Shown: in pieces, positions 12,821 to 52,040 of the stretch | How positions within the stretch are numbered: the stretch's first letter is position 1 | Layout: each line of letters begins with the position of its first letter | Notes under the pieces: model-generated | What the model was told of the DNA's origin: nothing | Databases searched by the model: none | Seen by the model: the letters and a program-made list of their open reading frames with translations, nothing else | Assembly: GCF_042100115.1 (NCBI RefSeq) | Contig: NC_091273.1 | Coordinates: 4,216,001-4,280,000, forward strand | DNA: 64,000 nt | Reading direction: 5' to 3' | Origin: Alternaria dauci | Lineage: Eukaryota > Ascomycota > Dothideomycetes > Pleosporales > Pleosporaceae | Program-made: the position numbers and the translations under genes

Positions 12821-14424
12821 ATGGCTCCATCGTGGCGCTTACTGAGTAGCTTCACGCTCAGCCTTGCTGCCCTCTTGGTCGCACAGTCTTCTCTTATAGC
12901 TGCGCAATGCGACATCCCTCCTCTTACGCTTACCTGGTCCAATCTGAGCGTCACACAAGACGGTCTCGGTGTCGCGCGTGGTATCGAACTTGGTATTGGA
13001 ACTCCACACCAGATCTTCGCTTTCCGGCCATCGACTACGCTCAACAACACGCGCATTAACAACGTTGTTAATTGCGGCTCTGCGAGCAACGACAGCTGTA
13101 TTGGAGGTCTCGGCGGTACTTTCGACTCGTCCAAGTCATCGTCATATGCTGTGTCGATCAAGAGTCAATGGAACGGAAGCCAGATCGACGATGAAGACGA
13201 TACAGGAGGATACGTCTACTTCAATGATGATGTCGCGTTTCAAGAGAACGGTCATGTCGACGGGTTTCCGTTGGTGATGGACAGTGAGGTATGGGGAGGT
13301 AAGGATCCCATGGATGCACCTTGTACAACCTGAATGGCAGGCAAGAAATGACGCTGACTCGGGATACAGGTATACAGTCCGGTCTGCCACTCGGCACGAA
13401 CTCGTCCTTCCTTCGCGCAGCCGTCGCAGGTGGTGTCGCGCCATCACAAGTTTTCGGTCTTTGGAGCGGTAGCAGAGGTGTCGATCCACATGACGGCCTG
13501 CTCGTTGTAGGCGGATACGATCGCGCGCGGGTTGACCCAGCGTCGAATTTCACTACTTTCCCAATCGGCGAATGGAATCTCGAACGAGCTTGCCCTTTAC
13601 AAGTCACGGTCACGAACCTGACATATCAGGACCATCCGCTCATACCTGATGATAGCGATGAGCTGATCGCATGCATTGAGCCATCGACACAACGCTTCGT
13701 GTTCCCTCCAGCGATTGCGCAGGCCTTTGGAGTGCATACCGGGCAAAATGAGACTGCATATCCGGGCAAGATGCACTATAATGTGTCTAGCCGTCCCATG
13801 GGCGACCTCGTTATAACACTGGCAGGCGGGTACCAGTCAACGATACCCAACAGGGAGTTGTTCGCGCCGCTACGTGGATCTGATCAGTACGGTCGTTACT
13901 CCATAATCAACGACAGCACACTCGACGCGTCGATAGCGGATACCCGAAAGAGCGATCCAGGAGATGTGGACAGTACGCTTGGAGGTCTCTTCTTAACTTT
14001 TAATTACCTTCTTGTCGACTACGCGAAAAGCGAGTTCCAACTTGCCCCGGCTGTCGCAGCCGATGCGGAAGACGTGTCGCCGGACCCTACGGCAATCTGC
14101 ACACCCACCAACACAGCACCCCCGAGTCCTACCCCAACACCCGAGAAGTCGACAAATACAGGTGCCATAGCAGGCGGTGTTGTCGGAGGTGTTGCAGGGC
14201 TTGCTCTGCTTGGTGCAATCGGCTTTCTATTGTTCCGGCGGAATCGCCGTGCTAAGAAGGATCCTCCTCCTGTCAGCGAGATTGACGGGCAGCCACATTC
14301 ACCTGTGCAACAGGTAGTGCGACAGCCGTCGGAGATGATGGCGCATGTAGCTGCACCCGTGCACGAAATGCCCGCGACTCGATACCCAAGTTTCCGAAAA
14401 TCCGAAGGCAGAGGATGGCGTTAG
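12821..14424 (+). CDS. Membrane-anchored pepsin-like protein lacking catalytic DTG motifs
   Basis: Exons 12821-13298 and 13370-14424 (71-base intron) encode 510 residues. A signal peptide (about 1-28, ending near IAAQ) leads to a peptidase A1-like fold: the strand LGIGTPHQIFAF, repeated N-glycosylation sequons, GVAPSQVFGLWSGSRG, LVVGGYDRARVD and STLGGLFLTFNYLLVDYAKSEFQLA all match landmarks of pepsin-like lobes. Where the first DTG should follow GTPHQIFAF the sequence is RPSTTLNN, and I find no second D(T/S)G in place. A Pro/Ser/Thr stalk, one transmembrane helix (AGGVVGGVAGLALLGAIGFL, about residues 420-445) and a basic cytosolic tail of about 65 residues follow. I infer a non-proteolytic cell-surface protein, perhaps a binding or sensing protein, rather than an active yapsin. 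Confidence 0.8.
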
Positions 14425-32907: not shown

Positions 32908-34489
32908 ATGACCCTACACTTCCTTCCGTCTGAGCAACAGATAGCGCTTGCTCTTGCCATCCTCCGGAATAAACCAGCTGGGGTGCGAGTACCAGGTACA
33001 ATTAACCCCATGAAGGAATCCACACATGCTGATAGTTCCAGACTACATTCTACAGCTGCGTGCCCAGCTCAAACCCGGCCCAGACCCTAGAGAGCGAGAC
33101 GACTCTGCGCGCTATATTGACGAAGTCGCTTACTGGAAGAACCGATGTCAAAAGGCGGAAGACGAATGCGAGAAACTTCGAGGTATCAACATCAAGCTCG
33201 AAAGATCGAACCATTTACTGTCAAGCCTGTCTGGTCCCGTCTTGGACGTCGATGCAGCTGCCTATACTACCAAGCGCAAAGCACCATCAGCGTCACCTAC
33301 GAGGTCTAAGCCATCGAGACAAGCACAGAACCAATCACCAGCGGTTGCTGCCCAGGAAACCATCGAGAATGACCTGGATTTTTTGGAAGTGCTCGGCAAG
33401 GATGGTTCCAAACTCACGGAGGCTTTGTACACCACGCATTCATTGTGTCGGTCTGACGAGCCAGACGCTGAGACTCTCTGCTTCAATCTTGTGCAAATCG
33501 CTTCGGGCATTGGCAAAGTCATACTTAACATTGCGCAGAACTACGAGCAGCTCTCTCGCCAAGGGCGGAGAGGCGCCGAAGCCATGTCATTCGATAAAGA
33601 CAAATCTGACTTCGCCGTCGCCCTCTCTGTCTGCGCTAGAGCCTTTATGTCGTTACTCGTCGGTGTAAACAAACTTATGGAGCGCAAGGCCGATGTGCGA
33701 CTTGCTAGTCTGATTGTCTGTGAGGTAGCAGGCATGTTCAAAGCTGCGTTGCAATCGATCGAGATATCAGCGCGACGTACAGCGCAGACTTTCTTGTCGC
33801 CGCGCCCTCCACCTAACAAGACGAAGACGAAAGCGCCTCCTGTCGTGAAAGAGTCCGCTCCAGCCAGAGCAGTTGCCCACTTGCTAATAAGCTTTCTCGG
33901 ATTCCTCGAGAAAACCGATTCTGTGCATCAAAAGATCTTCGATGGATTCGTTTTCGTGCTGTTCGAGCGTGTGGGGAAGAGATTATATTACTTTACGTTT
34001 GGACAGCATCGCAGTACTTCTATCGAAGGCAACATCTTGCCACCCCCCGAGCCGAGAGATGCAGCTGAGGCGACGAGACGGGATATTGACGCCCTAGCGA
34101 TCCGCCTTGAAGTAAGGGCACTTGTATTGATCCTTGAACGAGCGATGGGGTTAGCTCCAAACCACATGAATCCCCAGACTGCTCGCCCTAGCTCGGCGTC
34201 CAACCGCCCTGCCCGTACAATGAGCATCAAGACTACTGTTACGAGCACCAGGGCGCGCTTGAGTCCTCTGGCAAGAGACCGCCTGCAGCGAACGCTTGTT
34301 GCGTGCATGTATGGGAACAATACCAACGACGAATTCCTGGACGTTCTTACAAAGCCTGTCCCAGCCATACGACTTGGTTCCCTGCAGAATGTGGCGAAGA
34401 TCGACGACAAAGATGTGCAGACTTGGTTCAAGGAGGAGGTTTGGCGACTCGTAGGGTGGGACATTCTCGCGAGGGACGGCGCGTGGTGA
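32908..34489 (+). CDS. Unknown soluble protein, 513 residues
   Basis: Not recognised. Best model: exon 1 32908-32995 (MTLHFLPSEQQIALALAILR), a 40-base intron, exon 2 33036-34489. If that short intron is wrong, the ATG at 33026 inside it gives 487 residues. A short coiled coil (YWKNRCQKAEDECEKLRGIN, about residues 55-80) precedes a Ser/Pro/Lys-rich stretch and a large all-helical domain (LNIAQNYEQLS, ALSVCARAFMSLLVGVNKLM, AVAHLLISFLGFLEK). No signal peptide or transmembrane segment. The helical middle and the defined C-terminus (WFKEEVWRLVGWDILARDG) suggest a conserved fungal family of unknown role. It ends 74 bases from the convergent 5-oxoprolinase gene. Confidence 0.7.
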
Positions 34490-34563: not shown

Positions 34564-37500
34564 CTAGTTGCTGGCTTCCTGCGCCAACTGGAACTGACTG
34601 ACAAACCTCCGTTCTACTGCCGACCTCTTCTCGCTCACTACTCCATCCATCTCCGTACTCGTTTCATCCTTCGTTCCCCATCCACCTCCGCCAGGTGTGT
34701 CGATCACAAAGCAATCACCCTTTTGCACAGCAAAATCCTTACGTCCACCCAACCTACACCACCTCCCACCAACCTTTTTGACAATGTAGTTTACCCCGCT
34801 GCTCCCGTCTTCTCCACCTAGCATACCATAAGGTCTGGTAACCCGTCTTTCACTAACGATACTCGCATTCATCTCGCGGTAAAATTCATACACCCTCCGA
34901 ATGCCATTACCACCACTCCAGCGCCCCTTGCCACCCGAACCATCCCGTATACTAAATTCACGAAGAAGCACGGGGTACCTCTTCTCAAGTAGTTCTGGAT
35001 CCGTGATACGGGTGTTGGTCATGTGGATATGTACTCCAGAAGTTCCATGCCAACCAGGCCCCGCGCCGCTACCTCCGCATATCGTTTCTCCGAATCCGAA
35101 TCCCGAGTTTGGGATCGGGTTGCCAGCGTCGTCGTGGTCACCGTTGATGCCAAAGGAGAAGACGTTGCAGTCACCTTGGCTCGCGGCACATGCTTCGAAG
35201 GCGCGGATGACGACGTCGGTTACGCGTTGAGACGTGATAGGATTTCCAGCGCATACTGCGGCATATGGTGAGGGGTTGAGGATACTTCCTTCTGGAATCG
35301 TAAAAGTGAGGGGGCGGAGGCAGCCTTCGTTGAGGGGGATGTCTTGGTTAATGAGGCAGCGGAGCACGTAGAGGGTTGCAGATCTGGCGATTGCTTGTGG
35401 GGCGTTGAAACTGTGGTAGCCTTCTTCGCCTGTTCCGGTGAAGTCAAAGTGGGCGGATCCGTCGTCTGGGTTGATGGTTATGGCGAGTTTAATGGGCGTG
35501 CCGTCATCCATATAGTCGAGTGCCGTGAGGGACTTCCCGCCGGTTTCGCGGTAAATACGCTTCATGAATTCCCGTACGCATGCCTCGGCGTTCGCAGTAA
35601 TGGCATGCATATTGAGGTGTACAATGGCGAGACCTCGTTCAGCGATGAGATCAGCTACCAATGCGGCACCCTTGGCGTTTGCCGATACCTGTGCCTTGAG
35701 GTCGTTGATGTTATCGGCCAGCTTACGTGTTCCCGAACACCCTGCGTATTGAGCTGGATCATGGAGCAACACCTTTGTAACCAGCTCTTCGTTGAAGACT
35801 CCATCGCGAACAAGGTACTCTGAGACTATCATAGCACCCTCTTCGTGTAGCTCGACGCTACCAGCGGGCATGGAGCCTGGCAGTATTCCACCAATTTCTT
35901 GATGATGACCTCTCGAAGCTGTGTAGAATATGATAGTCTCACCTGCATCGTCGAAGACAGGTGTTACGCAGGTTATATCAGGAAGGTGGGTGCCACCAGA
36001 GATTGGGTGGTTAGCAACGATGACGTCGCCTGGTCGAAGTTGGCCTAGATACTTCTTGTGCTGGTACATGACCGCCTGCTCCATTGAGCCAAGATGAACT
36101 GGCACATGTGGAGCATTGGCTACGAGGCGGCCCTCGGGACTGAACAGTGCACAGCTAAAGTCGAGGCGCTCCTTAATGTTAACGGAAACGCTTGTTTTCT
36201 GCAACGCGAGGCCCATCTGTTCAGCGATGCTCATGAAACGGTGAGCCATGACAGAGAGTTCGACAGGATCAACAGTCCGCGGAGCAACTACTTCAGTGTC
36301 GGTCAGCGAAGTCGTGCGGTCGAGCTCGATCATAACGTGGCGCTCTAGAATAGTAGCCTTTGAGCGCGGGGCGACAACGATGGTTTGTGTGTTATCTAGA
36401 ATGATAGCAGGTCCATCTATGACATCTCCCTTGGCCAGCTTTGTCAAGTGGTACAATGGAGAGGTAGTCCAGCGGTCCTCGAAGAACACTGGAACGTGAT
36501 CCGAGATCTTCTTGGTGGACACAGGGGATGGGGAACATCCAGCTAGTTGGTCTTCCAAGATGAACTCAGGCTCGACCGATGGGCTTCGAGCCGTTGCCCG
36601 TACTCGTACATTCTCAACAAGAATGTCACGTCCAGGCATGATGAAAGAAAATTGACGTTTGTGCTCGGCTACGAAAGCCTCGTCCCACGATCTCTGATCA
36701 GGGCGTGAGACCATGAAGGTGGTGTCGGAACCTTCATAGCGAAGGTTCAGAAAGTGCTCGAAGCCGATGGTTTGGCCAGAGAATCCATCGTTGGCCAACT
36801 GATCAGCTGCGTTCTTCTCGAGCGACGCCAGCCGTTCGTCAAGTTCATCCAGAGAGGATCTGAGTAGTGCTGAACATGGTTCTTGAATATCGCGAACGAC
36901 ATCGGCCAACGCCATACCGTACGCGGATAGGATGGATGAATAGCGATGAACCAAGATGCGGTCGATTCCTAGGTTGGCCGCGATCGCACAGGCAGCCTGT
37001 CCACCGGCACCACCAAAAACTGCAAGATCGTGATCGGACGTCCGGTGGCCCTTGGCTTCAGTGAGCGAACGAATAGGCCGGCACATCGTCTCGTTTGCAA
37101 CTTCCAAGAAGCCAAGAGCAAGTTCTTCGACGGTTTTCGTTTTTCTAGTAGTCTGAGATAGATCGCGGTTGACCGTAACGAGTAGCTCTTCGAAAGCTCG
37201 CTTGGCGCCTTCATAGTCTAAAGGTTCGTTCTCGTGCTTGCCAAAGATCTTTGGGAAATACTCGACTTGTAGACGTCCCAGCACAAGATTGGCATCTGTA
37301 ACTGTCAAGGGTCCGCCTTTACGATATGCTGCTGGTCCGGGATGTGCGCTCGCTGATTCGGGGCCTGCCAGAAAGAGGCCGTTGCGATAGGAAAGAATGC
37401 TTCCGCCACCTGAACATGTTAATCTCAACTCTCGGTCCAGTATCAGTGCCATCACATACCAGCAGCTACAGTATCGATCTCTAGCTGTGGGGATTGAATC

Positions 37501-38673
37501 GTCACACCAGCCGTGATCGACTCAAACGTGTGCTCCAAAGTCCCCGCATATCGGGAAACATCAGTGCTAGTACCGCCCACTGCATCGGTGTTAACATGTG
37601 TCTAGCATTAGAGCCACATGATAGACTTACTGTCAAAGCCTATTACCGGCTTTCTTCGTTTGGTGTCGAAGCACGTCTTGCTAAAGCCGACAACGCCCCC
37701 AGCCGGGCCAGATAGAATGGCTTTGAGACCGCTGAAGTGTTGCCATCCCACCAGACCGCCATCACTCTGCATGAACTCGCAACGGGCGCCCTGGGAGTCT
37801 TCCAAGCCACCTATGAAGCCATCGCGAAAGCCATCGATGTAATTGCGCGTCAAAGGTGTAAGATATGCATCTGCTGTTGCCGAATAGCCTCTTGAGATGG
37901 CACGAATCATGGGGAAAATCTGTGACGATACAGATATTTGTGTGAAGCCAATGTCTTTGGCAATATCGGCAACTTGAAGCTCGTGGTTCGGGAATGTGTA
38001 GCTGTTGATAAGCGTTATGGCCAAAGACCGCACGTCCTTGTTGAACAGACTCTGTAGACCCTCGCGGGCATGGTTGCGATCTATGTTGATGTCAGCGCGG
38101 ATATTGCATCTAGGTGAGATACTGACCAACTGGTCGCAGAACGCGGATGGCTTCACCGCCAACACCCTTCTCCAGGTCATAAGAGTCGCGCTTTGGGTCT
38201 CTCAACGTTGATTTGTCTTCGGTTGAATCGTGAAGCGTAACACGCTCGTCGATCTCTAGGACATCGTCAAAAAGAGTCTCCGGCCTCCTAATGTTGAGAT
38301 CAAACAATTTTGGTCTTGTTTGATCGCCTATGCGAAGCAGATCTCTGAATCCCTTGGTGACGACCAGCGCGCACTTTGTGGAGTTGCGTTCCAACAAGGC
38401 ATTTGTAGCCACTGTTGTTCCCATCTTGATCGACTCAATGTTACTTGTGTCAATCTTCTCGCCGCGTGGTATCGATACGCCTGTGGCCTGTTCGAGTATT
38501 CTGCGGATGCCCTCGGTAGGCGCGTCAGAGTAGTTTGTCGGATCATTGCTCAGAAGCTTGACCAGTATATCCGGTTTTCCTGGAATGATACCCAGGCAGT
38601 CTGTGAAGGTACCACCACGATCAATCGCAATGCGAATGCCTGCGCCTTGTAGCGGCTGCTCAACAAATGGCAT
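34564..38673 (-). CDS. 5-oxoprolinase (ATP-hydrolysing), HyuA-HyuB fusion
   Basis: Opens 5-oxo-L-proline to glutamate with ATP, the salvage step of glutathione and gamma-glutamyl turnover. Exons 38127-38673, 37631-38080, 37460-37579 and 34564-37409 have introns of 46, 51 and 50 bases; the product has 1320 residues, the usual eukaryotic length. The HyuA half starts [16 protein letters not shown] and has [13 protein letters not shown] and, across intron 2, [13 protein letters not shown]; the HyuB half has [20 protein letters not shown] and [19 protein letters not shown]. The ATG at 38673 was chosen just before the hydantoinase fold; an in-frame ATG at 38766 adds 31 residues. It is divergent from the aminotransferase across a region with the CGG-N10-CCG palindrome. 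Other enzymes of this fold act on hydantoins, so the substrate is likely but not certain. Confidence 0.92.
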
Positions 38674-39280
38674 CTTTGGTATGAGATCTGGAGGCGAAAG
38701 CCGCCGGGAGACACTTGTTCGTGGTTCTGAGTATCGAACGACTTCTGCGTCCCTTAATGGATTCAAGAACTGGAATGCGTTGCGATGGTGCCAGTGTCGA
38801 GAGAACAGGACTTGGAGATATCAGCAGCGGCCGCCTGATTAGCCGCCACTTGTTGTATGCTATCGGCGGCAATCATGCCAAAGCTGCAGGCCATATCGCT
38901 CCGAACTCGTCGCATGACGGGTTTGCAATGCCTATCGCGTCGTCTTGAGAGTGGAGTAGCTTGGGATGCCGACAAAGGACGCGAATGACGCGCGATTGCC
39001 GATCCCTTCCGAAGTGATGCGCTAGACATGCCTTAGCGCGGCATGAATGAACCCCTCAATCTGGCACCCAACACTCCTTTTCGTCGGACTCCAGAGTCCG
39101 AAAGAACGACAAGGGTTGAGAGCACGTTCTCCACACCATGCTAACGGTTTCCGTAACCATGGGCATGGACTCGCGACACGCATGCCGAAGGCGCGGAATG
39201 AATCGAGTAACATTCATAGGAGCTGTGTTATAGTATGGCTGTAAGCATCATGGTTATCGTCGCACCCAAAACTATCCACC
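38674..39280. promoter_or_regulatory. Divergent promoter, 5-oxoprolinase / aminotransferase
   Basis: 607 bases holding cluster site A (39085-39100). No other gene seen. Confidence 0.6.
39085..39100. promoter_or_regulatory. Cluster site A, CGG-N10-CCG palindrome
   Basis: CGGACTCCAGAGTCCG. With the flanking T and A the arms are 8 bp with a 2-bp centre. It lies 181 bases before the aminotransferase ATG and about 410 before the 5-oxoprolinase ATG. Form and context suit a Zn2Cys6 dimer. Confidence 0.7.
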
Positions 39281-40606
39281 ATGGCAAGAAGCATCAACCT
39301 ACAGCTGGGGTGGCCGTCGCCGACATTGTTCCCTTCAGCTCAATTACTTGACGGCGCTACCATCGTACTGAAATCTCAAGCGAAAACAGCAGCTTCCCTG
39401 ATCTACGGGCCAGATGCTGGCTACGAACCACTTCGCCATAGTATTGCGAAATGGTTGACTTCCACATATGGACGTGGCTCGGTGATCGCGTTGGATCGCA
39501 TTTGTGTCACTAATGGCGCGTCGGGAAACCTGGATAACATTCTTGCGCGCTTCACCGAGCCCGGATACACAGAAAACATATGGATGGTCGAGCCATGCTA
39601 CTTTCTGGCCTGTCCAATATTCATGGACAATGGATTCCAGGGCATGATGAAAGGCGTACCCGAAGATGATGAGGGGTTGGACTTGGAGTTTCTACGACGA
39701 AGTCTTGAGCAAGCAAGTGCATCGCCGACGTCGAATTCACCAACACGAAAGACAGGTGACAGATACAAGAAGCTTTACCGACATGTCATATATTGCGTCC
39801 CAACCTTCTCGAACCCGAGCGCGAAAACCATGTCACTGCGGCGAAGACAGGACCTCATACGTCTAGCACGGAAATATGACGCTCTGGTGGTTACTGACGA
39901 TGTGTACGACATCTTGCGCTGGCCAGCAGACAAACAAGGCAACTTCGAAGACCTCGGCCACGTACCCCCGCGACTTGTTGATATTGATCGTGTCCTAGAA
40001 GGAGGCCCGAAAGACGAATGGGGGAACGCTGTGAGCAACGGATCGTTCTCAAAGATCATAGCGCCAGGGGTCAGAGTCGGATGGACCGAAGCAACGCCTG
40101 CGTTCACACTCGCGTTGTCGCAAGTAGGTGCGACGAGATCTGGTGGCTGTCCTGCACACCTCGCCGCTTCGTTCGTACACGAAATCTTGGAGTCTGGGAT
40201 GTTGCAGAAGCATCTCGAGACTAAAGTTATCCCAACTTTTCGAGCTCGTTACTACGCCATGCTGGAGGCAATTGACACTCATCTGACCCCACTCGGCATC
40301 ACCGTCTCTACCGGAAAACCCTATACCGAAGTCTCGGGGCAAGCGAATAACGTCGGAAAAGATCACAGTAAGTGTGTGACTCAGGCGGGCGGGTATTTCA
40401 TCTGGTTGTTGTTGCCAGAAGGCTTCGGTGGCAGGGTTGCGGATCTGGCTGCCAAAGCTCTCACGCAGTACGATCTGAAATTTGCATATGGTGATATGAT
40501 GCAAGTACAAGGTGAGCCTGAATCCGCTATTCGGGCTGCAAAGGGCTACGGGAATGGCATTCGTCTATCATGGGCATGGCACACAGAGGCAGATAGTCAA
40601 CCGTGA
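39281..40606 (+). CDS. PLP-dependent aminotransferase, class I/II
   Basis: Fold-type I aminotransferase of 441 residues, intronless. Cofactor-binding landmarks are seen: YGPDAGYEPLRHSIAKWL, VTNGASGNLDNIL, YCVPTFSNPSAKTMSLRRRQ, the Asp/Tyr pair in VVTDDVYDILRW, and the Schiff-base Lys in SNGSFSKIIAPGVRVGW. The C-terminal Arg for the substrate carboxylate is in IRLSWAWH. It resembles the fungal group around yeast YER152C (2-aminoadipate/valine-pyruvate type) rather than a biosynthetic aspartate aminotransferase. Related enzymes in some clusters act as C-S lyases on cysteine conjugates, so the reaction is open. It ends 43 bases from the convergent amidotransferase gene; its promoter carries site A. 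Confidence 0.85.
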   Translation: MARSINLQLGWPSPTLFPSAQLLDGATIVLKSQAKTAASLIYGPDAGYEPLRHSIAKWLTSTYGRGSVIALDRICVTNGASGNLDNILARFTEPGYTENIWMVEPCYFLACPIFMDNGFQGMMKGVPEDDEGLDLEFLRRSLEQASASPTSNSPTRKTGDRYKKLYRHVIYCVPTFSNPSAKTMSLRRRQDLIRLARKYDALVVTDDVYDILRWPADKQGNFEDLGHVPPRLVDIDRVLEGGPKDEWGNAVSNGSFSKIIAPGVRVGWTEATPAFTLALSQVGATRSGGCPAHLAASFVHEILESGMLQKHLETKVIPTFRARYYAMLEAIDTHLTPLGITVSTGKPYTEVSGQANNVGKDHSKCVTQAGGYFIWLLLPEGFGGRVADLAAKALTQYDLKFAYGDMMQVQGEPESAIRAAKGYGNGIRLSWAWHTEADSQP

Positions 40607-40649
40607 GATATATAGTTGATACACAACGGAAAATTCAATGGCTACATAC

Positions 40650-41534
40650 TCACTCTCTACTTGGTGGTGTAAGCAAGCCTCCACTAACAGTATGTGAGTG
40701 ACCATGTTTCTCAGTACTGTCCTCCAGGAAGAATTTGAGGACCATGCGAGCTGCCTTTACAGAATCATCGTCCGCGTCGATAGCATCGAGCGTCTCTTCC
40801 AGGACCTTCGGTTGCCAGCTTGGGAAGAAATATTTGACCGTTTCGCTGTTAACGAAACGATCAAACTCGAAATGGCCTTGCAAGGTAAGTACACGACCTG
40901 GTTCGTATACTCCTTGTACCGCGCAATGCTTGGTATTTCCCACGGTCATCCAGGAATGCGGCAGGGCCTCCATATCTGGGACAACCACGTGGTCATGGTG
41001 TACAAACTGCAATCTCATCTTTCCCGAGCTGCTCGTTCCAGCATCTTCTTCACCCTCGAAAAACTGGCTCCGGAACGGCTGATGTAGTATGATCTCCTTG
41101 ACCCCTAGTTCCCAGCCTTTTGGATCCTTCTCTACCTTCACTCCATAATCTTTCAGCAAAGCCTGGCATACTAGCTGATGACCAAAACAGCTCCCAAAGA
41201 TTTTCAGGTTCGGTTCGTGTTCATAAACCTCCTTTACCCATCGTTCAAGTTTGCGTATCCAGGGCAAATCGTCGTATGCAGATTTCGCCGAGCCGGAAAT
41301 GATGATGGCATCGAATTCTGTTACTGAAGCGGGGTATTCGTTTATCGTGACATCGAAGTCGGTAGACGTGATGCGGATGGCATCTTTCGATGGATGTCGC
41401 GATGGTTTGGTGTTGGTAGCGGCGGAAGAGAGGAGATCATGGAAGATGCGCCCGTAGGTGGGGGCACGTTTGCCAGCCACCGCCGGAACCGGCGCATCAG
41501 CATTCAGCATGCAAATACGTAGAACTTGTGCCAT
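40650..41534 (-). CDS. Class I glutamine amidotransferase-like, possible gamma-glutamyl peptidase
   Basis: Stand-alone GATase-1 domain of 294 residues, intronless. The catalytic triad is intact: nucleophile Cys in IFGSCFGHQLVCQAL and His/Glu in LTLQGHFEFD. HDHVVVPDMEALP and NTKHCAVQGV are typical of the subgroup that contains plant gamma-glutamyl peptidase GGP1 and yeast YLR126C, which hydrolyse gamma-glutamyl bonds without a synthetase partner. No fused synthase domain is present. Together with the nearby 5-oxoprolinase this suggests gamma-glutamyl compound breakdown (inference). It faces away from the MFS gene across a region with site B. Confidence 0.85.
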   Translation of the reverse strand: MAQVLRICMLNADAPVPAVAGKRAPTYGRIFHDLLSSAATNTKPSRHPSKDAIRITSTDFDVTINEYPASVTEFDAIIISGSAKSAYDDLPWIRKLERWVKEVYEHEPNLKIFGSCFGHQLVCQALLKDYGVKVEKDPKGWELGVKEIILHQPFRSQFFEGEEDAGTSSSGKMRLQFVHHDHVVVPDMEALPHSWMTVGNTKHCAVQGVYEPGRVLTLQGHFEFDRFVNSETVKYFFPSWQPKVLEETLDAIDADDDSVKAARMVLKFFLEDSTEKHGHSHTVSGGLLTPPSRE

Positions 41535-42402
41535 AACTATACTGAGCGAGTATATGAGCTTTGAATTGTATGTTTGGTACCAAGTAAAGCTTCCGATACT
41601 GATACACCTATCTTGCTCTATGTTACTTTCGATAGATGGGTCTAAATTCGGCCGTGCACGTGACAGCCGCCGATAAGCGGTTGACGTTTGTCGCGACTAT
41701 CTCGCGATTTGCCACGTCTCTCCATCCTCAACGTCTACGCACTTGGCCTACCTTGATTAGACACGACGTTATCTCGACTGTGTTCGCCAGCAATTCTCTG
41801 TCGCCGGGACACGCGACGGTCGTGTCATGATGCGGACGCGAAACAACCGGACAATGCGCGCCGATGTAATACACGGTATCAGTATGCCCAGCACGTTGCA
41901 GACCAACGCCTTTGCGCATGCATGCTTCACGGCATGTCCACATTGTCTACCCACACAGATCTCAGCTCTCGGGATTTGAAAGTCTTGGAGCTAGCACCAT
42001 CGAGGTATGGTGTGAGGGCCTGATAGCTCACGCTCGGCCGTGACCCACCGGCGGACTTGAGAGTCCGAAGCATCACCTCTTTGTTCCCTCGACGCCAAGC
42101 AACGTACATGGGCATGCGAACCGGCTGATCATTGCCGTCGCCAATATGCGGAGAACAAAAACGCCCTCGAGTCAAGGATGCAGTGATGGTCTTATCGAGC
42201 TGGCCTCTGACGGCCCATATCCCGTTCGACCGCTGTCTAGCTGGAGATAGTGACACCCAACGAGATACCGAGATACGCATTCGCGATATGGTCCTCCATC
42301 TTGGTTCAGCTCTCGTATAAATCGCAAGTCGAATGAACGTGTTCGAAACACCTAATAGGAAACTCTTTTTGAATTCTCATCTCTACTTCATTTACAGACA
42401 TC
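41535..42402. promoter_or_regulatory. Divergent promoter, amidotransferase / MFS carrier
   Basis: 868 bases holding cluster site B (42052-42067) and a TATA box before the MFS gene (TATAAAT, 42316-42322). Open frames inside it show no domain. Confidence 0.6.
42052..42067. promoter_or_regulatory. Cluster site B, CGG-N10-CCG palindrome
   Basis: CGGACTTGAGAGTCCG: 6-bp arms, 4-bp centre; 335 bases before the MFS ATG and about 520 before the amidotransferase ATG. Differs from site A only at two centre bases. Confidence 0.7.
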
Positions 42403-44087
42403 ATGGCCGACGATAGCAAGGTTATGTCGTCTGCTGACATTGAAGATACGCACTCTGTCAAAATCGGCGAAGTTGCTTCAGCGAATCTTGACGTCGCTGC
42501 TGCCTACGCCCATCACCTCGAGGGCGAGAATGCGTATACAAGAAAGGAAGCAACACGTTTACGATGGAAGCTAGATTTGCGCCTCGTGCCATTATTATGG
42601 TGTGAGTGCTTGAGACAGAAAATCATAGGAAACTTTTACTAACGGATGTTGCAGTCAATATCACGCTGGGTGCTATGGACAAAGTGACGACAGCTACCGC
42701 TGCCCTGTACGGCTTCCGGGCTGATACCGGGTTGACTGGAGACCGATATAGTTGGGTCGGCAGTGCCTTCTATGTAAGAAAGTCTAGCCTGTATCGCATT
42801 CACAATGCTAATATTATGAAATAGTTTGGCTATCTCGTATGGTGTCTTCCCAGCGGCAGTCTCCTTCAACGCTTCCCGATCGCCAAGCTCATGTTCATAG
42901 CCCAACTCCTTTGGGGTTGTATCCTTATCGCGACTGGCTTCGCAAACAATTTCCCAACTCTCATTGCACTACGCGTGCTGCTCGGAGCCCTTGAAGCGCC
43001 GATCGTGCCGGGCAATTTCCTCATCATCGGCATGTGGTATCCCCGGCGTGAACAACCACTTCGGACAGGTCTGATGTATACTGGACTCTCCGTATGCTTC
43101 ACTGGCCCGATTGGTTATGGAATTGGTTTCCTCACAGGAGAGCACCAATGGCGCGCCATGTTTTGGATCACGGGTGCAATGACCATTGTATGGGCTTGTG
43201 CGATTGGGATCTTCCTGCCTGACAACCCGGTCAAAGCAAAGTTTGTTACGGAAAGGCAAAAGGCCATTGTCATTGACAAAATCCGGCAAGATCAGACTGG
43301 AGTGGAAAACAAGACGTTCAAGAAAGAACAGATGATCGAAGCCTTCCTCGACCCGAAGACCTGGCTGATGTTCTTCTTTCACATCTGGATTAGCAGTAAG
43401 TAGACTCGAGAAACCAGCACTAGGAATATGAACTAACATCCCCAAGTTCCGAACGGAGGCCTAACGAACTTCACACCTCTTATCATCAAGGGTCTCGGTT
43501 ACACTTCGCAGCGCTCAACTCTCCTCACAATGCCTACCGGTATCTTGCAGACCGTGGCTTCATACGTATGCAATGGCGGTGTTTTTCTGACCGCAAAATA
43601 CTTCCCTGCGAGGCAGCTGCGAACTGCTTGGGTCATGTTTGGTATCATTGTCGGCATGATATCTGCAGTCTTCCTCTACGTTCTGCCTCTCGACAACTAC
43701 AACGGACGTCTTGCAGCATTATACTGCTCGTACTTCTACCTTGGTCCCTACATTGTTGCGCTAGGTATCAACACGGCAAACACCGCTGGTCACACTAAGA
43801 AGGTCACAGTTAACGCACTGGTCTTCATCGCCTACTGTGTTAGCAACATTATCGCCCCGCAGTTCTTCAAAGCTGACCAAGCCCCACTGTACCCACTTGG
43901 CATGGGTGCCGTTCTGGGAAGCTACGTGCTTTCGATGATCACCATCGCCATGTATGCGGCATACTGTTGGTACGAGAATCGGAGGCGTGATCGCATCGAT
44001 GCCGACAAGGGAGGGAGGGTGCATGCAGATACCGACTTCCGCGACCTGACTGATAAGCAGAATGTGCATTTCCGATATGTATGGTAG
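42403..44087 (+). CDS. MFS carrier of the allantoate permease (ACS/Dal5) family
   Basis: Twelve-helix plasma-membrane symporter for small organic anions. Exons 42403-42601, 42655-42773, 42825-43395 and 43447-44087 (introns of 53, 51 and 51 bases) give 509 residues. Family marks: RLRWKLDLRLVPLLWFNITL opening helix 1, DRYSWVGSAFYFGYLVWCLP, RVLLGALEAPIVPGNFLIIGMWY, GEHQWRAMFWITGAMTIVW and FLPDNPVKAKF before the central loop. The Dal5 family carries allantoate, nicotinate, pantothenate, biotin and dipeptides. In this cluster it probably imports the compound the enzymes degrade. Site B and a TATA box lie upstream. Confidence 0.92.
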
Positions 44088-44696
44088 GTGCGAACGAATA
44101 TGAGGCAGCGGGATATATAGAGATTCTGTTAGATCAACAACATGATCAAGTGCGCCATGTTTGCAAAATTCTCAAGATACTGGTGCCATCGATTTGTGTA
44201 AGACTCTAGCTGTAATCCGCAGAGCCCCAAAGCGTGATCAAGATCGGTGCCGCCCGCAACGCATACGACAATTTGCTGCGGCAACAATCCTCAATACTCT
44301 GCTTCTAAAATGGTCATTTCCAACCGATGAAACTGGATTCGCATTATTCGGAAGTCGCCAACCGATCAGGCGTGCGGCCCCGCTCGTCAAAAGTGGAGCA
44401 CCTCGTGGCTTTCGGCTTGTGTCTTGATAACGGACTTTGTCGGACTCCAAAGTGCGACGCTGCAAAAGCACGCCGCTCATGCACTTTAGTGTAGTGGGGA
44501 ACTTGTATACCCTGCATATTGGGTGACGAGGGAAACTACCCTTTTCGTGCATTGTGTACTAGGAGAGCTACCATGAAGGCAAGGCGATATCTGATGGATA
44601 AATGGTCTTCAGTACCCCTTCGGTGTACATAAATCATCTTCAGAGCTGCAGAACTTCGTAGACATAATCACATACTATCGCAACACATCCGACACC
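44088..44696. promoter_or_regulatory. Promoter region of the isocitrate-lyase-like gene
   Basis: 609 bases holding cluster site C and an extra CGGACT half-site ten bases before it (44431). Confidence 0.6.
44441..44456. promoter_or_regulatory. Cluster site C, degenerate CGG-N10-SCG palindrome
   Basis: CGGACTCCAAAGTGCG, 240 bases before the ATG of the lyase-like gene. It matches site A except at two positions, one of which changes the second half-site from CCG to GCG. Confidence 0.6.
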
Positions 44697-46362
44697 ATGC
44701 CGAAACTCCAGATATCGGTTGAAGATGAACAAAAATCCTTCGAAGCGGATGTGGCTGCAATCGAGAAGCAATGGAGCTCTGCGAGACAATCGCACTTGAA
44801 GCGGTATGTAGACTTTGCAAATTACCATTAGTCGTGTATCGTAACAGACTAAAGCTGATTTCATGTATAGACCATACTCTGCGAGCACTATAACCGCGCT
44901 TCGAACATCTATCCCTGCACCCTCAGGCGCTTCTTCAACTCAGGCCGTTAAGCTCTGGAATCAATTACACGCCCACAACGACGCTGGCACATGCGAGTTG
45001 ACATTTGGTACCACCGATCCTGTTGCAGTTTCGCAGATGGCCAAGCATCAGCAAACCGTCTACGTGTCTGGTGCTCTATGTGGATTCTCCGAAGTCGCAC
45101 TCCCAGGAATGGACCACGCCGACTACCCTTGGGACACCGTGCCGAAGGTTGTATCAAAGATCTTCAAGAGCCAACTTTGGCATGACCAGCGACAACGACA
45201 GTACCGATTGCGACATCCGGTGGAGGAGCGGGAAGGATTAGAGAATTGGGATTACATGGCGCCTATCGTTGCAGATGGCGATATGGGCTTCGGTAGCCTG
45301 ACTAGCACCATGAAGATGGCACGCGAGTTTGTGGACGCTGGCGTAGCCATGATCCACATCGACGACTTGGCCATCGGCATGAAGAAGTTCACAGTTGGCC
45401 AAGGGCGGACTATCGTACCCACTCAGGAATACCTGGATCGCCTGACAGCTGTGCGGATGCAATTTGATGTTATGGGCGCGGAGACGCTACTGTTGTGCCG
45501 CTGCGATACGGACCATGCAGAGTTCATCACCAGTGTCGTGGATGAGCGTGACCATGAGTATGTGCAGGGCGCAACAAAGAAGGTTGAGCCACTGCAGAAG
45601 TGCCTCCAGGCTGCACAGATCGAAGGTAAAGATTTGAAAGTTGCGCGAGACGAGTGGAAGGCCAGAGCGGGAATTAAGACGTTCGACGAAGCTGTCGAGA
45701 CCGTTGCAACGGAAGCAGAGTTCGCTGCATACAAGGCAGAGCTGTCGAAACAGATGTTCACTTCCCTGTCCGAGCGTCGCAATATCGCAACCAAGACCGT
45801 TCAACAGGAAGTGTTCTTTGACTGGGAGCTATCGAGATCAGCCATGGGTCAATACATGCTGAAAAGCTGCGTCAAAGGCATCGTCGAGCGTGCCATCGCG
45901 GCCGCACCACTTGGAGATGTAACATGGGCGCGTATGGATTCACCTAACTGGGAAGACATCGTCGAGTTTCACACCGAAGTTCGGAAGGTGTGCCCGAACA
46001 GACTCTTCGCCTTTGGTTACACCGGTGACTACGACTTTGCAAAAGCCGGGTTTAGTGAGGAACAAGTCAAGAACCTGCACCTTGACCTTGCCAAACTAGG
46101 AATAGTGTGGCAGGTCCAGCCGATCTGGAGTCTGCAAGGCCTGAATATGGTGACAGAACAATTCGCGAAGACGTGGCAGGAGCAAGGTATTGCTGGCTAC
46201 TTGAAGTCGATTCAAGGTCCAGCTCTTAGCTCAAAGCCTATGACGGATGGCTTTGAGAAGTTGAGCTATTGCGGTGGGTACCTGGCGGATGCGTTCTTTG
46301 AGACGGTCGCAGGAGAGTCAATCGTAGAGAAAGGGAAGGCCGCCAACTTCCAGAGACACTGA
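44697..46362 (+). CDS. Isocitrate lyase-fold enzyme with substituted active-site motifs
   Basis: Member of the ICL/PEP mutase superfamily with the long eukaryotic ICL layout. Exons 44697-44803 and 44871-46362 (67-base intron) give 532 residues, as in fungal ICL. Shared blocks: LTFGTTDPVAVSQMAKHQQT, VYVSGALCGFSE, ADYPWDTVPKVV, IVPTQEYLDRLTAVR, NRLFAFGYTGDYDF and QGLNMVTEQFAKTW. The catalytic segment differs: the canonical KKCGHMAGK reads KKFTVGQGR (about 207-215), so the general-acid Cys and its His are Phe and Val, and the ADADTGHGG metal loop reads ADGDMGFGS. It is unlikely to cleave isocitrate or methylisocitrate by the known mechanism; I infer a lyase or hydrolase for another substrate. 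It ends 57 bases from the convergent transcription factor gene. Confidence 0.88.
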
Positions 46363-46419: not shown

Positions 46420-48715
46420 TTATGTCCAACCATCGAAATCAAACACACCGGGGAATGAGAGCAGTCCCTCGATATCCAGATCTTGAAGCCCGGGTTCCGC
46501 GATTCCATACTCAAACGGCTGCTGCATGGCGAATGGCATCTGGAAATTTGCGTTGATCTGCTGCAGCTGAGTGTTAAAATGATTCCCAGGTTCTTGCTGG
46601 ATTGGACCAAGCATGCCAGCAACTGATGGAGGCTGAGAAATTTGCGTTGAGCGAGGAAAGTCTTCGTGTATCATCTCGTCGATCATGCGCAACACGGGAC
46701 GATGCACTACCAGTGCACGAACCTGCGGAAGTTGCGCTTCAATCGTCGTAACCGTTTTCTCTGATAATCGAGTCGGTGGCTTGTTTGGTCGGTCGACTAG
46801 CGGTATCTCGCGCGCCAGCAGTTCAAAGACGTCTCGCAGACATTCCGCCTTAGCCCACCGATCTGCCATTATCGCGAGAATATTGGAGCAGGCACGTAGC
46901 GCGTCAGGGACGTCAAGGGAGAAGTAGTTCTCAGTTCTTTGTTCTGGTGGAGTAGCCCAGAAGCAGTACAATAGTGTGATGCCGGACTGGAACTGAACAA
47001 GAAGCTATCGATATCAGTGGGAGCATTACTGAATGTTGAATCATACTCACTGCAAGCCATGGTTGCGCGATCTGACGATCAATCTGCGTTTTACGAAACA
47101 TCAAACAAGCTTGACTGCTTGCTTGAACTGACTGCAGAGGCGAGAACACGAGTTAGTGTGTCTCATATGCTTTCGTGCAGTCATGGCTTACCCAGTCGCC
47201 AGCAGACCCGACCACATTAGCTTTTGTTGGCCGATATAGCATAAGCAACGTATAGTGATATATCATAGCTTGCCAGCGTTGCGACGTGTAGCCTTTCGAT
47301 TGTGGGTCCGAGAAGTTCTTTACACGGGACTTGAAGTTATTCAACTCCGTGAGGATTCTTATTCGCCAATCCGAAGTGTTCTCAAATTGAGTTTCGTAAT
47401 CCCATCGAAGTGTCACAGCGCTTATTTCGGATTGTATGCGCCTGCATTGGAGTATATGAAGCGCTGAAGAGTTGCACGTATAGTGCTGAGAATCAGCCAA
47501 GTCATGACTCGGCGGTGTGATCGCAGCGGCTTCCCACAAGTCTCGGTCCTCGATGTTAGCAAATGGCCTTACAGTTATCATGTAGTCTGGTATCGACGGG
47601 GGTAGATCGAATGAGGACATGACCAATCGATCAAGCAAGTATGCGCACCAAAAGCACCGCCGACGGACTTGGATCATAAGCCTTGTTTGAACATTTGCTG
47701 ATGGTGGCTCCATCTCACCAAGATGTAGTTGTTGCTGAACACATTGTCGCATAGCCGTAGACGCAAGCGAGATGATACGTTCCGTGGAGCTCTGATGTAG
47801 TGCATGAATGGATAACAGGAGATAAGCTTGCACCTGGAGGATTCTATCAGGTTGACGTAGCACAGCCGGTAGCAGCGAAATCCCGCTATTGTAGAATTCT
47901 CGCGCATTGAGAGTCGCCACATACGGCTGCCTCAGAAGTACCAAAGATGTTGCGTACACTAAGTTGACGAAAAAGCCTTGCCATGCTCGTTCTTGGAGGT
48001 CGCAGGGGAGGCAGTGCTTCCATTCCGAATGCCATGTGAGGAACGTGTCCCAATGGAAAAAGGGATACTGAGCTTGAGCACGTTCGCGATACGCGTCAAG
48101 TAATGCTTCCTCTAGTTCTAGAGACATGGTAGCCAACAGCGTGTGTGCGCTATTGACAACGGCCAATGCCGGTCCTGGGTTGGTTGGAGTGGTTGCAGCA
48201 TCGTGCGTTGGGAATTGCGCTGATGGCGATGCAATCAGTCCGAAGACAAGATGATTCAGGTCCGGCTCATCATCGAGAGCAGTAGCTACAGCATAACCTG
48301 GCGATGAACCGGAAAGCATGGATGGTCGTCGCGGCGGCACGCTTCGCTGAATTGATGGACTGGTAGCTGCGCCATGAACACCGCCATTCCGCATCCCACT
48401 GCTCGCCGGCGATGTGTCGGGGTTATTCTCTTGATCAGGCCTGTTAGAAGGCCTCTCGAGGTGGTCGAGACTGTGCTGTGGGTCTAGAGACTCAAGCTCA
48501 GCAACGCGTCGTTCTAGAATGCGCACATAATCGCTTTCAACATGCGGACGCGGCGCAGGCTGGGTGGGTAGACAATTTTCGTCTCCTTTGATACAGTTCT
48601 GGCATGGTCGGTTGTCTTCGCACTTCTGTTTCCGGAAACGACATCGCTGGCAAGCTAGGGTCCGTTGCTTTTTGGCTGGCGGCTCCTGTGAGGGACTGGC
48701 GCGTTCATGCTCCAT
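46420..48715 (-). CDS. Zn2Cys6 transcription factor, candidate cluster regulator
   Basis: Fungal binuclear zinc cluster activator. Exons 47192-48715, 47051-47131 and 46420-47004 (introns of 60 and 46 bases) give 729 residues. The cluster motif is perfect: Cys 22, 25, 32, 38, 41 and 48 (CQRCRFRKQKC...CQNC...C), followed by a short linker and a dimerisation helix (YVRILERRVAELESLD). The fungal-specific transcription factor domain starts near AQYPFFHWDTFLTWH, with RRRCFWCAYLLDRLVM typical of its core. The C-terminus is Gln/Pro-rich and acidic and could be the activation domain. A CGG-N10-CCG palindrome occurs three times in neighbouring promoters, so this is the obvious candidate to bind it (inference). 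Confidence 0.92.
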
Positions 48716-49615
48716 CGCTTGGACTCATCGGTTTTCCTTCCATGCTTGAATCACGCTATGATTCGTAAGTTGTTTGATATTGTTCCGGCGCACTTCGAGG
48801 CAGTGCAGGTTGTTGCATAGATAGCAGTGCCGACTGCCGGACCAGCCTGCGATAGGGATGGGAAACGATACCGAAAGAGTCTAGGCGTTCACGTGACCAT
48901 CCTGCAATCTTACTTCCGAGGTCATGCATTCCTTATCACATACCCTGATCTGATGTCGCTCCAATGTCATACCAAACTTCATCAAGCAGATGCAGAAACG
49001 CGTCTAATTCCAAGTGCTGTATCCTCATACATGATGCTCGATTACTAGGTGAAGCTCACCGCACGCGCCAGCATGACGTACAGCCGGCTGACGATGCTTG
49101 GCGCTATCCGAAGAAGCTTGATTGTTGATGCCGAAGGGCCCGTGCAGATTTCCAGGCTTCTTCATACCAAGGTCCACCATACCGCACGGCCCGCGTTGGG
49201 AAAACTGTTCATATCCATGGATGGGTGCCGACCAGAGCTATACAGCTGGCAGCACTTGTGTCGGCAAGCTACTCCATGTGCCAGCAGCTCCTCACCATGT
49301 TCTCAAAAGCTTGATCCCTGAGTGACTGCCGTCACAACGTCTTTCACACTACAAGGCGTCCGCGTAACGCTTTACCAAGCTTCAGCCTCATTTCGGGCCG
49401 CGAACAAGTTCTAAAGGGCCGAAGGTGGAACACAGCTGAACAATTCCGCGATTACTCAAGCAGAACAAGACGCAAGGATCGCAATTAATCTGTAGTGATA
49501 GCATCATCAGGGATTGGGTCTGTGAGTAGAGTTTTTCCCCAATATAAAATGCAGGTGTGCTGTGCCTCCATTATGACTGCGCCACCACTCCAGCAATCGA
49601 TCGACACAAACCATC
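48716..49615. other. Divergent promoter region, transcription factor / solute-binding protein
   Basis: 900 bases. I see no full CGG-N10-CCG site. TATAAAA at 49545-49551 serves the solute-binding gene. Short open frames (for example 49049-49321) were not called. Confidence 0.5.
49545..49551 (+). promoter_or_regulatory. TATA box of the solute-binding protein gene
   Basis: TATAAAA in CCAATATAAAATGC, about 70 bases before the ATG. Confidence 0.55.
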
Positions 49616-50788
49616 ATGCGCTCTACATTCTCTAGCCTGGCACTCTTTGCCTCAGCCTCTTTAGCAGCCTATGTCCCGAATGCTACGACTTTCGAGCAGG
49701 AGACACGCAGCATCGATGAGATCTACCAAGCAGCTCTTGCCGAAGGTGGCGTCGTTACTCTTTGGCATGGCGGTGACGAGAAGACCCAACAGAATAGCTT
49801 GAAGACCGCCTTCGAAGCCCGGTTCCCCAACATGACGCTCAATGTCACTGTCGATGTATCCAAGTACCACGACGGCAATCTCGATGATCAGCTGGCAGCC
49901 GACAATGTTTACGTGGATAGCATTATCCTCCAAACGCTGCACGACTATCCACGCTGGAAGAAAGCAGGTGTTTTGATGAACTATGCGCCATTGAACTTCG
50001 ACAAGGTATACCCTGTGTTCAAGGATGCAGACGCAGCCTACAGTGGATTGTTCATTCTCAACTGGGGGTATGATACTTTCCACACTGCTGTCTGTTCCAT
50101 GAGCTAAACAGCAATAGAATCTCCGCCAACATGAATAAGACAAGCACAATGCCGACATCGTACCAAGACTTTACCAAGCCCGAGTTCAAAGACAAGATTG
50201 TTCTGACCTACCCAAACGACGATGATGCAGTGCTGTACCAGTTCGAGCTCATGTGAGTTCATCTTCTCATAAATGGTATAGGAGTACACTAATAATGGCT
50301 TTAGCTTGGAACAGCTCGGCCAGAAATGGTTCGATGCTTTGCTTGCCAACAATCCTCGCTGGGTACGCGGCACAGCGACCCCCGGAGCACTCGTTCGTGC
50401 TGCCAACACCAGCAGCGCAGCAACTTTTACTGGAGGCGCCAGATTTACAGATCGGCCACCGATCAGATATGCACTACCCAGCGATGCAAACTTTACCTCT
50501 TGGGCTCAGACTGGCGCCATCCTGAAGAACGCACCGCATCCCGAAGGCGCAAAGCTGCTGCATAGTTTCATGCTCAGCGACGAACACCAAACCGGTGGTA
50601 CCTGGAGTGTTCGCGAGGATATCGCAGTGGCTCAAGGCGCCGAGCCAATCCTCCAGCAGCCTGGTACGGATGCTCCTGCATTCGCGACCTGGATGGCAGA
50701 CCGTGACAATGTCGAAAGGCGAAGGTTCTTCTACGAAGACAAGATTGGTACTGCCCAAGGCCTCAGCCCGCTCATTGACGACTTGTGA
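49616..50788 (+). CDS. Secreted bacterial-type ABC solute-binding protein
   Basis: Extracellular protein with the periplasmic-binding fold of bacterial Fe3+/polyamine-type transporters. Exons 49616-50067, 50118-50252 and 50305-50788 (introns of 50 and 52 bases) give 356 residues. A signal peptide (MRSTFSSLALFASASLAA) precedes GGVVTLWHGGDEKTQQ and FEARFPNMTLNVTVDVSKYH, the typical first-lobe start; KPEFKDKIVLTYPNDDDAVL is the hinge region, and YALPSDANFTSWAQTGAILK with HPEGAKLLHSFMLSDEHQ belongs to the second lobe. Fungi lack the membrane ABC partner, so the protein may bind a ligand in the wall or medium. An origin by ancient transfer from bacteria is plausible, but the introns show long residence. 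It borders the catabolic cluster. Confidence 0.85.
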
Positions 50789-51192
50789 ACGTACTTTCAC
50801 AGTGCACGTTGAGAAGGCCGTGCGCAGAAGTGGCAAGAGACTTGAAAAGTTCTGTAGATGTCCAGGTGACGCAGTGCCTGGTATACTTCCACGTAAGTAA
50901 TTGCCAAGTAAGATTCTAGTAATTTAGTTCATCAGATACTTTGTACCAATTTGTGCATACCTTCGAGATTCTCAGCTATCAGTCTCTCTCTGAACAATTT
51001 GTGACTCTTACTGCACTTTTCATTATACACTCACGTATCGAATGCGGTGTTCTATTTTGCCCGCGCCACAATCATCTCCGCTGACCGATTTAGTGCAAGT
51101 GTTGTGAATCACCTAGTTCAGATTCCTTCTCTTGCGTTCAACTTCTTCCCTAACTTCTGCAACCCTTGACTGCGGCTCCTTCTAGTCCAAAC
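50789..51192. other. Intergenic, no gene seen
   Basis: Pyrimidine-rich towards its end (about 51115-51185), as expected for the promoter of the following BTB gene. Confidence 0.5.
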
Positions 51193-52040
51193 ATGTCTGA
51201 GTCAAAGCGACGATCTGACAAGTAAGTAAACCTTGCCAGCTTTTCGAGCGCCTAATACTGACTTAGCTATGGGCTCTTCAACAACCCCGCTCTCTCCGAC
51301 GTCACGATCAAGCAAGTATACAAAGGTCAGAGGCGGGAGTATTATGCGCACAAGACTATACTATGTCTCGAGTCTGGATACTTCTTCAACGCCTTCACTG
51401 GTGGTTTCAGGGTAAGTAAAGACCTCGTGGTGACTCGAGACAAACCACTAATGATCTTCAGGAAGCATCCGAGGGCACTATGGAGCTACACGAGGATAAT
51501 CCGGAACACTTCGAATGCCTACTCAAGTTCATCTACAGCGGCACTTACGACAAAGACGAGATTGCTGGGCTAGCAGGTAGCGACAAGATCAAGCGTGTTC
51601 TTATCCCGATCGGAATTTACACGGTCGCCGATAAGTACGATGTCTCAAATTTCTACGGACCTGCTGCAGACGACGTCAAAGATGTTCTCACCAAGGCTTT
51701 TAGGAACCAAGACATGATCACTGCTGCGATCGAGGCTCACTACAGTACCGAGGTCCAAGCTGATGGACTCATGGGACGTCTCATCACCACTCTTGTCTTC
51801 AATCAGTACAAGGACCTTCTCGAGACCGAAAAATTCGAACAATTACTCATTGCTCATCCGGCCTTTGCCACAGATGTTATACTTTACTCCAAGCGTTGCA
51901 AGATATTGGGAACAAGACCTCGCGCCGAGTGCGAAACCTGTTTGAAAGAGATTGTCGAGATTGACTTCATGTACACCATCAATACCTTCTTTTATTGTCC
52001 CTTCTGTGGCAGCGATAACTATCTTCCCCCAAGGGAGTGA
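51193..52040 (+). CDS. BTB/POZ domain protein with C-terminal zinc-binding cysteines
   Basis: Exons 51193-51221, 51267-51411 and 51462-52040 (introns of 45 and 50 bases) give 250 residues. The BTB fold covers about residues 10-130: PALSDVTIKQVYKGQRREYY, AHKTILCLESGYFFNAFTG, then LLKFIYSGTYD and YTVADKYDV. Two CxxC pairs at the C-terminus (CETCLKEI and YCPFCGSDN) probably bind zinc. BTB-only proteins are numerous in Pleosporales and often act as cullin-3 adaptors; the partner is not visible here. Confidence 0.85.

Follow-up and report, generated by a model that had tools for sequence, protein, structure and literature searches.

A 64-kb window of the Alternaria dauci genome (the whole stretch of 64,000 nucleotides analysed, contig C2, positions 4216001-4280000; window coordinates are used below) carries three similar 16-bp inverted CGG motifs among the genes of a small cluster, and the question is whether these sites mark a regulon and which protein would read them. 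Our analysis suggests that they are upstream activating sites of a Gal4-type Zn2Cys6 homodimer in a small, cluster-confined regulon of five genes, and that the binder is most likely the factor encoded at 46420-48714; we put the probability of this reading at roughly three in four. As a prediction from sequence, there is good support for a local regulon whose mark is an inverted CGG site of the Gal4 type, given the genome-wide rarity of the motif, the enrichment of the ten-base spacing and the linkage of the factor with the aminotransferase and lyase genes. Binding itself, the identity of the binder, activation and the response to an inducer are predicted from the same data.

Rarity of the three sites

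The sites would serve a catabolic cluster encoding a 5-oxoprolinase, an aminotransferase, a class I glutamine-amidotransferase-like protein (GATase), a major facilitator superfamily (MFS) carrier and a lyase resembling isocitrate lyase (ICL), and they fall in two divergent promoters and one single promoter:

39085..39100, no strand: site 1, CGGACTCCAGAGTCCG, a perfect palindrome in the divergent oxoprolinase/aminotransferase promoter
42052..42067, no strand: site 2, CGGACTTGAGAGTCCG, a perfect palindrome in the divergent GATase/MFS promoter
44431..44456, plus strand: site 3, the half-site CGGACT (44431) followed by CGGACTCCAAAGTGCG (44441), an imperfect palindrome

The aminotransferase ATG lies 188 bp downstream of site 1 and the oxoprolinase ATG 420 bp downstream in the other direction; the centre of the site 3 16-mer is 248 bp 5' of the lyase ATG. 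An earlier, sequence-only reading of the window had reported these three 16-mers, and each is present where it was placed, between genes identified here, with 12 of 16 positions identical across the three. Its description of a shared CGG-N10-CCG palindrome is exact for sites 1 and 2 but not for site 3, which reads CGG-N10-GCG, with one triplet broken. Two further elements lie near site 3: the extra CGGACT half-site (44431) and, apart from it, a CGG-N10-CCG (44349). The stretch 44431-44456 may be a composite site, with three CGGACT/AGTGCG half-sites in succession, the first pair direct and the second inverted, and 4 bp between neighbours.

The motif proved rare in a scan of the whole genome (34.9 Mb in 10 contigs). 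The strict form, CGGACT-N4-AGTSCG, occurs in five distinct places, three of which are the noted sites; the other two lie inside open frames of 986 and 691 codons, presumably coding, according to a crude open-frame test applied without gene models to stretches of 3.0 or 1.4 kb. Apart from these two, strict sites are confined genome-wide to the cluster promoters. The perfect form, CGGACT-N4-AGTCCG, is found at two places in the genome, both in the cluster and 3 kb apart, and the window holds no additional copy with 0 or 1 mismatch; the sequence-only reading had noticed no other full copy there. When the spacer was allowed to vary from 0 to 12, the same arms were found at 14 genome places (28 for the reversed control), the 12 with other spacers being scattered. 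Allowing up to one mismatch, 35 places lie outside the cluster; by the same crude test 26 of them are in frames of 150 codons or more, the other 9 in shorter frames. Within the window, this motif is the sole 6-bp inverted repeat (spacer 0-15) that recurs at a distance of 100-6000 bp; 13 of 150 shuffled windows yield some such recurring pair. The three-site observation is confirmed, and a chance origin for it is unlikely.

Enrichment of the ten-base spacing

The noted sites are part of a broader CGG-N10-CCG feature of these promoters. The three intergenic regions, 2.08 kb in all, contain six copies (39085, 41848, 42035, 42052, 42122 and 44349), of which the GATase/MFS region holds four. The four that the sequence-only reading had not used are:

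41848..41863, no strand: CGG-N10-CCG in the GATase/MFS divergent promoter
42035..42050, no strand: CGG-N10-CCG in tandem with 42052, the two sites being 17 bp apart
42122..42137, no strand: CGG-N10-CCG in the GATase/MFS divergent promoter
44349..44364, no strand: CGG-N10-CCG upstream of the ICL-like gene

At genome density 0.31 copies would be expected (Poisson P ~1e-6), and the four additional copies are in excess by themselves (P ~3e-4). Of the 63 combinations of spacing (0-20) and orientation compared, inverted triplets 10 bp apart gave the strongest signal (6 versus 0.49 expected, 0 of 1000 shuffles). With slightly adjusted boundaries, none of 5000 shuffles reached six copies and 4 of 5000 reached four.

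The candidate regulator and its linkage to proposed target genes

The proposed regulator lies at one end of the cluster:

46420..48714, minus strand: Zn2Cys6 + Fungal_trans transcription factor (Pfam Zn_clus, Fungal_trans), proposed cluster regulator

Its Zn_clus domain scores above the cut-off and its Fungal_trans domain (PF04082) reaches 62.6 bits against a cut-off of 23. Six cysteines (C25, C28, C35, C41, C44 and C51) fit the pattern CX2CX6CX5-12CX2CX6-8C and are invariant in an alignment of 21 sequences; 61 of 98 factor homologues carry the Zn2Cys6 pattern and 37 lack it. By its domains the factor is a Gal4-type Zn2Cys6 protein, for which dimer binding to CGG triplets is predicted. The top named match, from Alternaria alternata, is 92% identical. 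The gene had been placed 2 kb from the third site, which holds for its 3' end; the start codon is about 4.3 kb away.

The gene for this factor appears to travel with two of its proposed targets, the lyase and the aminotransferase, as judged from shared contigs and consecutive locus tags. We compared the best 120 of 353 lyase matches, all 98 factor matches and the best 120 of 1705 aminotransferase matches; leaving out rows without a contig size, 119, 96 and 120 were used. Among the matches listed, lyase and factor shared 30 contigs, lyase and aminotransferase 29, factor and aminotransferase 23, and all three 13, where equal contig size is a stand-in for the same contig and sharing a long contig does not amount to adjacency. 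Controls with sizes shifted by 1-3 bases gave 0-2 shared contigs, and 10 of the 30 lyase-factor contigs are shorter than 30 kb. Consecutive locus tags were found in Fusarium sarcochroum (10039-10041), Cosmosporella (048140-048160) and F. nematophilum (013239-013241). The linkage has exceptions, among them the aminotransferase listed for Verruconis, which sits on a different contig from lyase and factor, and the lyase listed for Paraphoma, whose contig differs in size.

A distant locus with a tandem element

Relatives of the cluster were absent from the viral contigs searched and from a first scan of bacterial genomes; a second bacterial scan gave one match. This locus (L051, NYXK01000116.1), filed under a Deltaproteobacteria metagenome-assembled genome, encodes an aminotransferase (46%), a lyase of the type with KKF at the signature position (44%) and the factor (31%), in the order aminotransferase (minus), lyase (plus), factor (minus). 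Stop codons interrupt the matches to the lyase and the factor, a pattern expected if these genes have introns. The bin appears contaminated or mixed, with fungal-type genes here and bacterial-looking oxoprolinases on other contigs, the latter as long uninterrupted frames close together.

Conservation of the motif at orthologous promoters, which the sequence-only reading proposed as a check, was looked at in this one distant locus: CGG-N10-CCG is present there, including a tandem with the 17-bp period, and the exact CGGACT palindrome is absent. The 444-bp promoter between the aminotransferase and lyase genes holds two copies, at 9563 and 9580, and the remaining 21.4 kb holds one. Two or more copies arose in 98 of 20000 shuffles of this promoter and the 17-bp tandem in 0 of 20000, counts that are post hoc, the tandem having been spotted after both loci were viewed. 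With the tandem present there and the CGGACT flank absent, the triplets and their spacing look older than the ACT flank, as far as one locus can suggest. In the A. dauci genome the 17-bp tandem occurs at three places in 34.9 Mb (reversed control 1): one at 42035/42052, one inside a 455-codon frame and one of unclear setting. The whole 7.3-Mb record of the distant locus contains one (control 0), which is not used as a rate because the assembly is mixed.

A more far-reaching proposal is that filamentous fungi at large share the factor and its sites as an ancient and conserved cis-trans pair, in which a fixed two-site composite (sites one nucleotide apart, 17-bp period) would seat two dimers next to each other and which would govern a widespread, undescribed amino-compound pathway with the aminotransferase and a cysteine-less ICL-like enzyme of new specificity at its core. 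We regard this as a tentative extension that is rather improbable as a whole.

Alternative explanations

A number of observations count against control of the cluster by its own factor through these sites, the reliance of the linkage counts on contig size being one, and the others are set out here alongside the alternative explanations. The alternative that survives best holds that the sites are real but serve a Zn2Cys6 factor encoded elsewhere, such as a Put3/proline-type or general nitrogen regulator, and that the cluster factor uses other sites. Zn2Cys6 proteins are numerous in fungi, and CGG-N10-CCG is the spacing of the sites of Put3, the proline utilisation activator of Saccharomyces cerevisiae. 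A search of the genome with the cluster factor returned 15 further matching places, all weak (the best at 27% identity), and no close paralogue was seen there. The promoter of the factor itself (48715-49615) contains no CGG-N10-CCG and no motif copy with up to two mismatches. Its DNA-binding domain scores better against PPR1, which reads a 6-bp spacing, than against PUT3. At the distant locus, the ACT...AGT extension is not kept (the best 16-mer in the promoter has 3 mismatches), and tblastn over 21.9 kb did not find the oxoprolinase, GATase or MFS genes. A general regulator, however, should have more targets, and both strict sites outside the cluster lie in long open frames; moreover, it is with the cluster factor that the lyase and aminotransferase genes are linked in other fungi, and CGG-N10-CCG copies accompany that factor at the distant locus. 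We therefore consider a factor encoded elsewhere unlikely, and favour the cluster factor as the binder.

It is far less probable that similar 16-mers arose by chance or composition and were picked out post hoc. A pair with a third one-mismatch copy did appear in one of 150 shuffled windows (about 1 in 150 per window), and copies at one mismatch or fewer number 38 in the genome but 50 for the reversed control, so that there is no genome-wide excess. CGG-N10-CCG is likewise less frequent genome-wide than its reversed control (5209 versus 8934), and three other classes of triplet arrangement in the cluster promoters exceeded shuffled expectation: everted at spacing 10 (3 versus 0.49, P 0.012), inverted at spacing 0 (3 versus 0.59, P 0.028) and direct at spacing 0 (4 versus 1.11, P 0.036). 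Chance would nevertheless have to place both perfect copies of a 34.9-Mb genome within 3 kb, produce the excess of the four additional sites, and put a tandem of the same 17-bp period, albeit one noticed post hoc, at an orthologous promoter. A genome-wide regulon was considered and rejected, as the one-mismatch motif and CGG-N10-CCG both fall below their reversed controls; since one-mismatch copies show no genome-wide excess, the signal is local.

Least probable of all are nucleic-acid structures (hairpins or terminators) or relics of promoter duplication or of a mobile element. The sites are palindromic and repeated, but to the eye the three copies show no resemblance in the 25 bases flanking them on each side, and this speaks against promoter duplication. 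They are placed 5' of start codons, in two of three cases between divergent genes, and CGG-N10-CCG copies with unrelated interiors are also in excess, an excess that a hairpin would not require.

Proposed mode of control and comparison with known systems

Under control by the cluster factor, a homodimer would read inverted CGG triplets at a spacing of 10 bp and, in this species, would prefer ACT/AGT as their inner flank. Because sites stand in all three promoters, one regulator could control all five genes jointly, switching on the 5-oxoprolinase, the aminotransferase, the gamma-glutamyl-peptidase-like GATase, the MFS carrier and the ICL-like lyase. The sequence-only reading had called this a self-contained regulon with its own factor. 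The local regulon is well supported by rarity, spacing enrichment and linkage, but "self-contained" is too strong in one respect, since the factor's promoter lacks the site. Autoregulation through this site was rejected for the same reason. As the gene for the factor is apparently not controlled through the site, constitutive production and activation by an inducer would be expected, as for Put3.

The similarity to Put3 includes the same inverted CGG triplets 10 bp apart and a DNA-binding domain and linker of which 53 residues of the cluster factor align gap-free to PUT3 (PDB 1zme, 1ajy); both systems likely serve a nitrogen-compound pathway. The present system differs in the inner ACT/AGT flank and the 17-bp tandem seen in it, and the factor is likened to Put3 by its DNA-binding domain alone. 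One source (PMC6080790) describes Put3 as constitutively bound and activated by proline, and by analogy this mode is a plausible model for the cluster factor. A paper on AtrR names CGG-N10-CCG as one of three candidate motifs in the cyp51A promoter, along with several other spacings, and in those passages makes no link to this cluster.

Pathway-specific Zn2Cys6 regulators of fungal gene clusters are known, among them the AflR, PrnA and QutA types, and it is a well-known arrangement that such a factor has inverted CGG sites within its own cluster. The present cluster resembles these types in having a regulator gene at its edge and repeated palindromic sites in divergent promoters; it differs in the siteless promoter of its regulator. 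The kind of system is familiar, then; what looks new is this member of it, together with its pathway and the possible tandem element, and the open-licence papers searched gave no description of the cluster or site. The pairing of an uncharacterised regulator with a DNA site is specific and testable, and it opens a way into an unnamed pathway, the core genes of which co-occur in a range of filamentous fungi.

Proposed target genes and candidate pathway

The five gene families named by the sequence-only reading agree with the Pfam domains found:

34564..38673, minus strand: 5-oxoprolinase/hydantoinase A+B gene in several exons, its 5' open reading frame (ORF) having the first ATG at 38673
39281..40606, plus strand: class I/II pyridoxal phosphate (PLP) aminotransferase, Pfam Aminotran_1_2
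40650..41534, minus strand: class I glutamine-amidotransferase-like protein, Pfam GATase
42403..44087, plus strand: MFS transporter, D-galactonate-transporter-like, several exons, Pfam MFS_1
44697..46362, plus strand: ICL/phosphoenolpyruvate-mutase superfamily lyase, intron after the first exon, Pfam ICL, PDB matches to fungal ICLs

In the oxoprolinase gene, Hydant_A_N, Hydantoinase_A, Hydant_A_C and Hydantoinase_B are spread over three ORFs that we treat as exons of a single gene; all four domains expected of a 5-oxoprolinase are present and this activity is predicted. The aminotransferase has 1x0m and PH0207-type aminotransferases as its top PDB matches, a top named match in Alternaria alternata (90% identity) and an SFSK motif, which we take to hold the PLP lysine. 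For the GATase, the closest solved structure is gamma-glutamyl peptidase 1 (PDB 9k7i, E 3e-8), presumably a plant enzyme; the two are alike in their cysteine and His-x-Glu motifs (GSCFGHQ and HFE in the cluster protein), though the similarity is remote. The MFS transporter reaches 153.5 bits against NCBIfam TIGR00893, under the cut-off of 395, and matches PDB 6e9n.

These functions may be arranged into a pathway in which the MFS carrier imports a gamma-glutamyl or 5-oxoproline-type compound, the GATase and oxoprolinase free an amino acid from its gamma-glutamyl or 5-oxo form, and the freed amino acid is transaminated and then cleaved at a C-C bond by the lyase; this order and these substrates are conjectural.

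A second 5-oxoprolinase gene, 49-58% identical and without the motif, lies about 57 kb away on the same contig (C2:4186000-4195999). No second copy of the cluster was seen: in the stretches searched, neither this locus nor the other oxoprolinase locus (C2:1.19 Mb) has another cluster gene at E 1e-5, and both are free of motif copies at one mismatch or fewer. The open frames on either side of the cluster, at 33014-34489 and 49577-52040, have no Pfam match and no such motif copy nearby.

The cysteine-less lyase

Most of the cluster lyase aligns with isocitrate lyases of fungi (isocitrate lyase/2-methylisocitrate lyase, PF00463 and TIGR01346; 336 bits against the TIGR01346 cut-off of 275.9), and its top named match, from Paraphoma, is 89% identical. 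The catalytic KKCGH/KRCGH motif of that family is replaced: the protein has KKFTVGQ where isocitrate lyases read KKCGH, and MGFGS in place of TGHGG. The label "ICL-like" in the sequence-only reading is right as written, for a protein that lacks the isocitrate lyase signature cysteine. We suggest that it is a different C-C lyase.

The substitution extends well beyond this species. K[KR]CGH is found in none of the 120 homologues listed (of 353 found), all 120 being of the KKF/KRF type, among them the "mitochondrial 2-methylisocitrate lyase" of Schizosaccharomyces pombe; among the open-licence papers listed, none is on the fission-yeast lyase as judged by title. The three other family loci of the A. 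dauci genome keep KKCGH or KRCGH. Where homologues without the KKCGH cysteine are named in their source records, they are mostly called isocitrate or 2-methylisocitrate lyase. Such names are probably misannotations, and the current annotation may be wrong for the whole subfamily.

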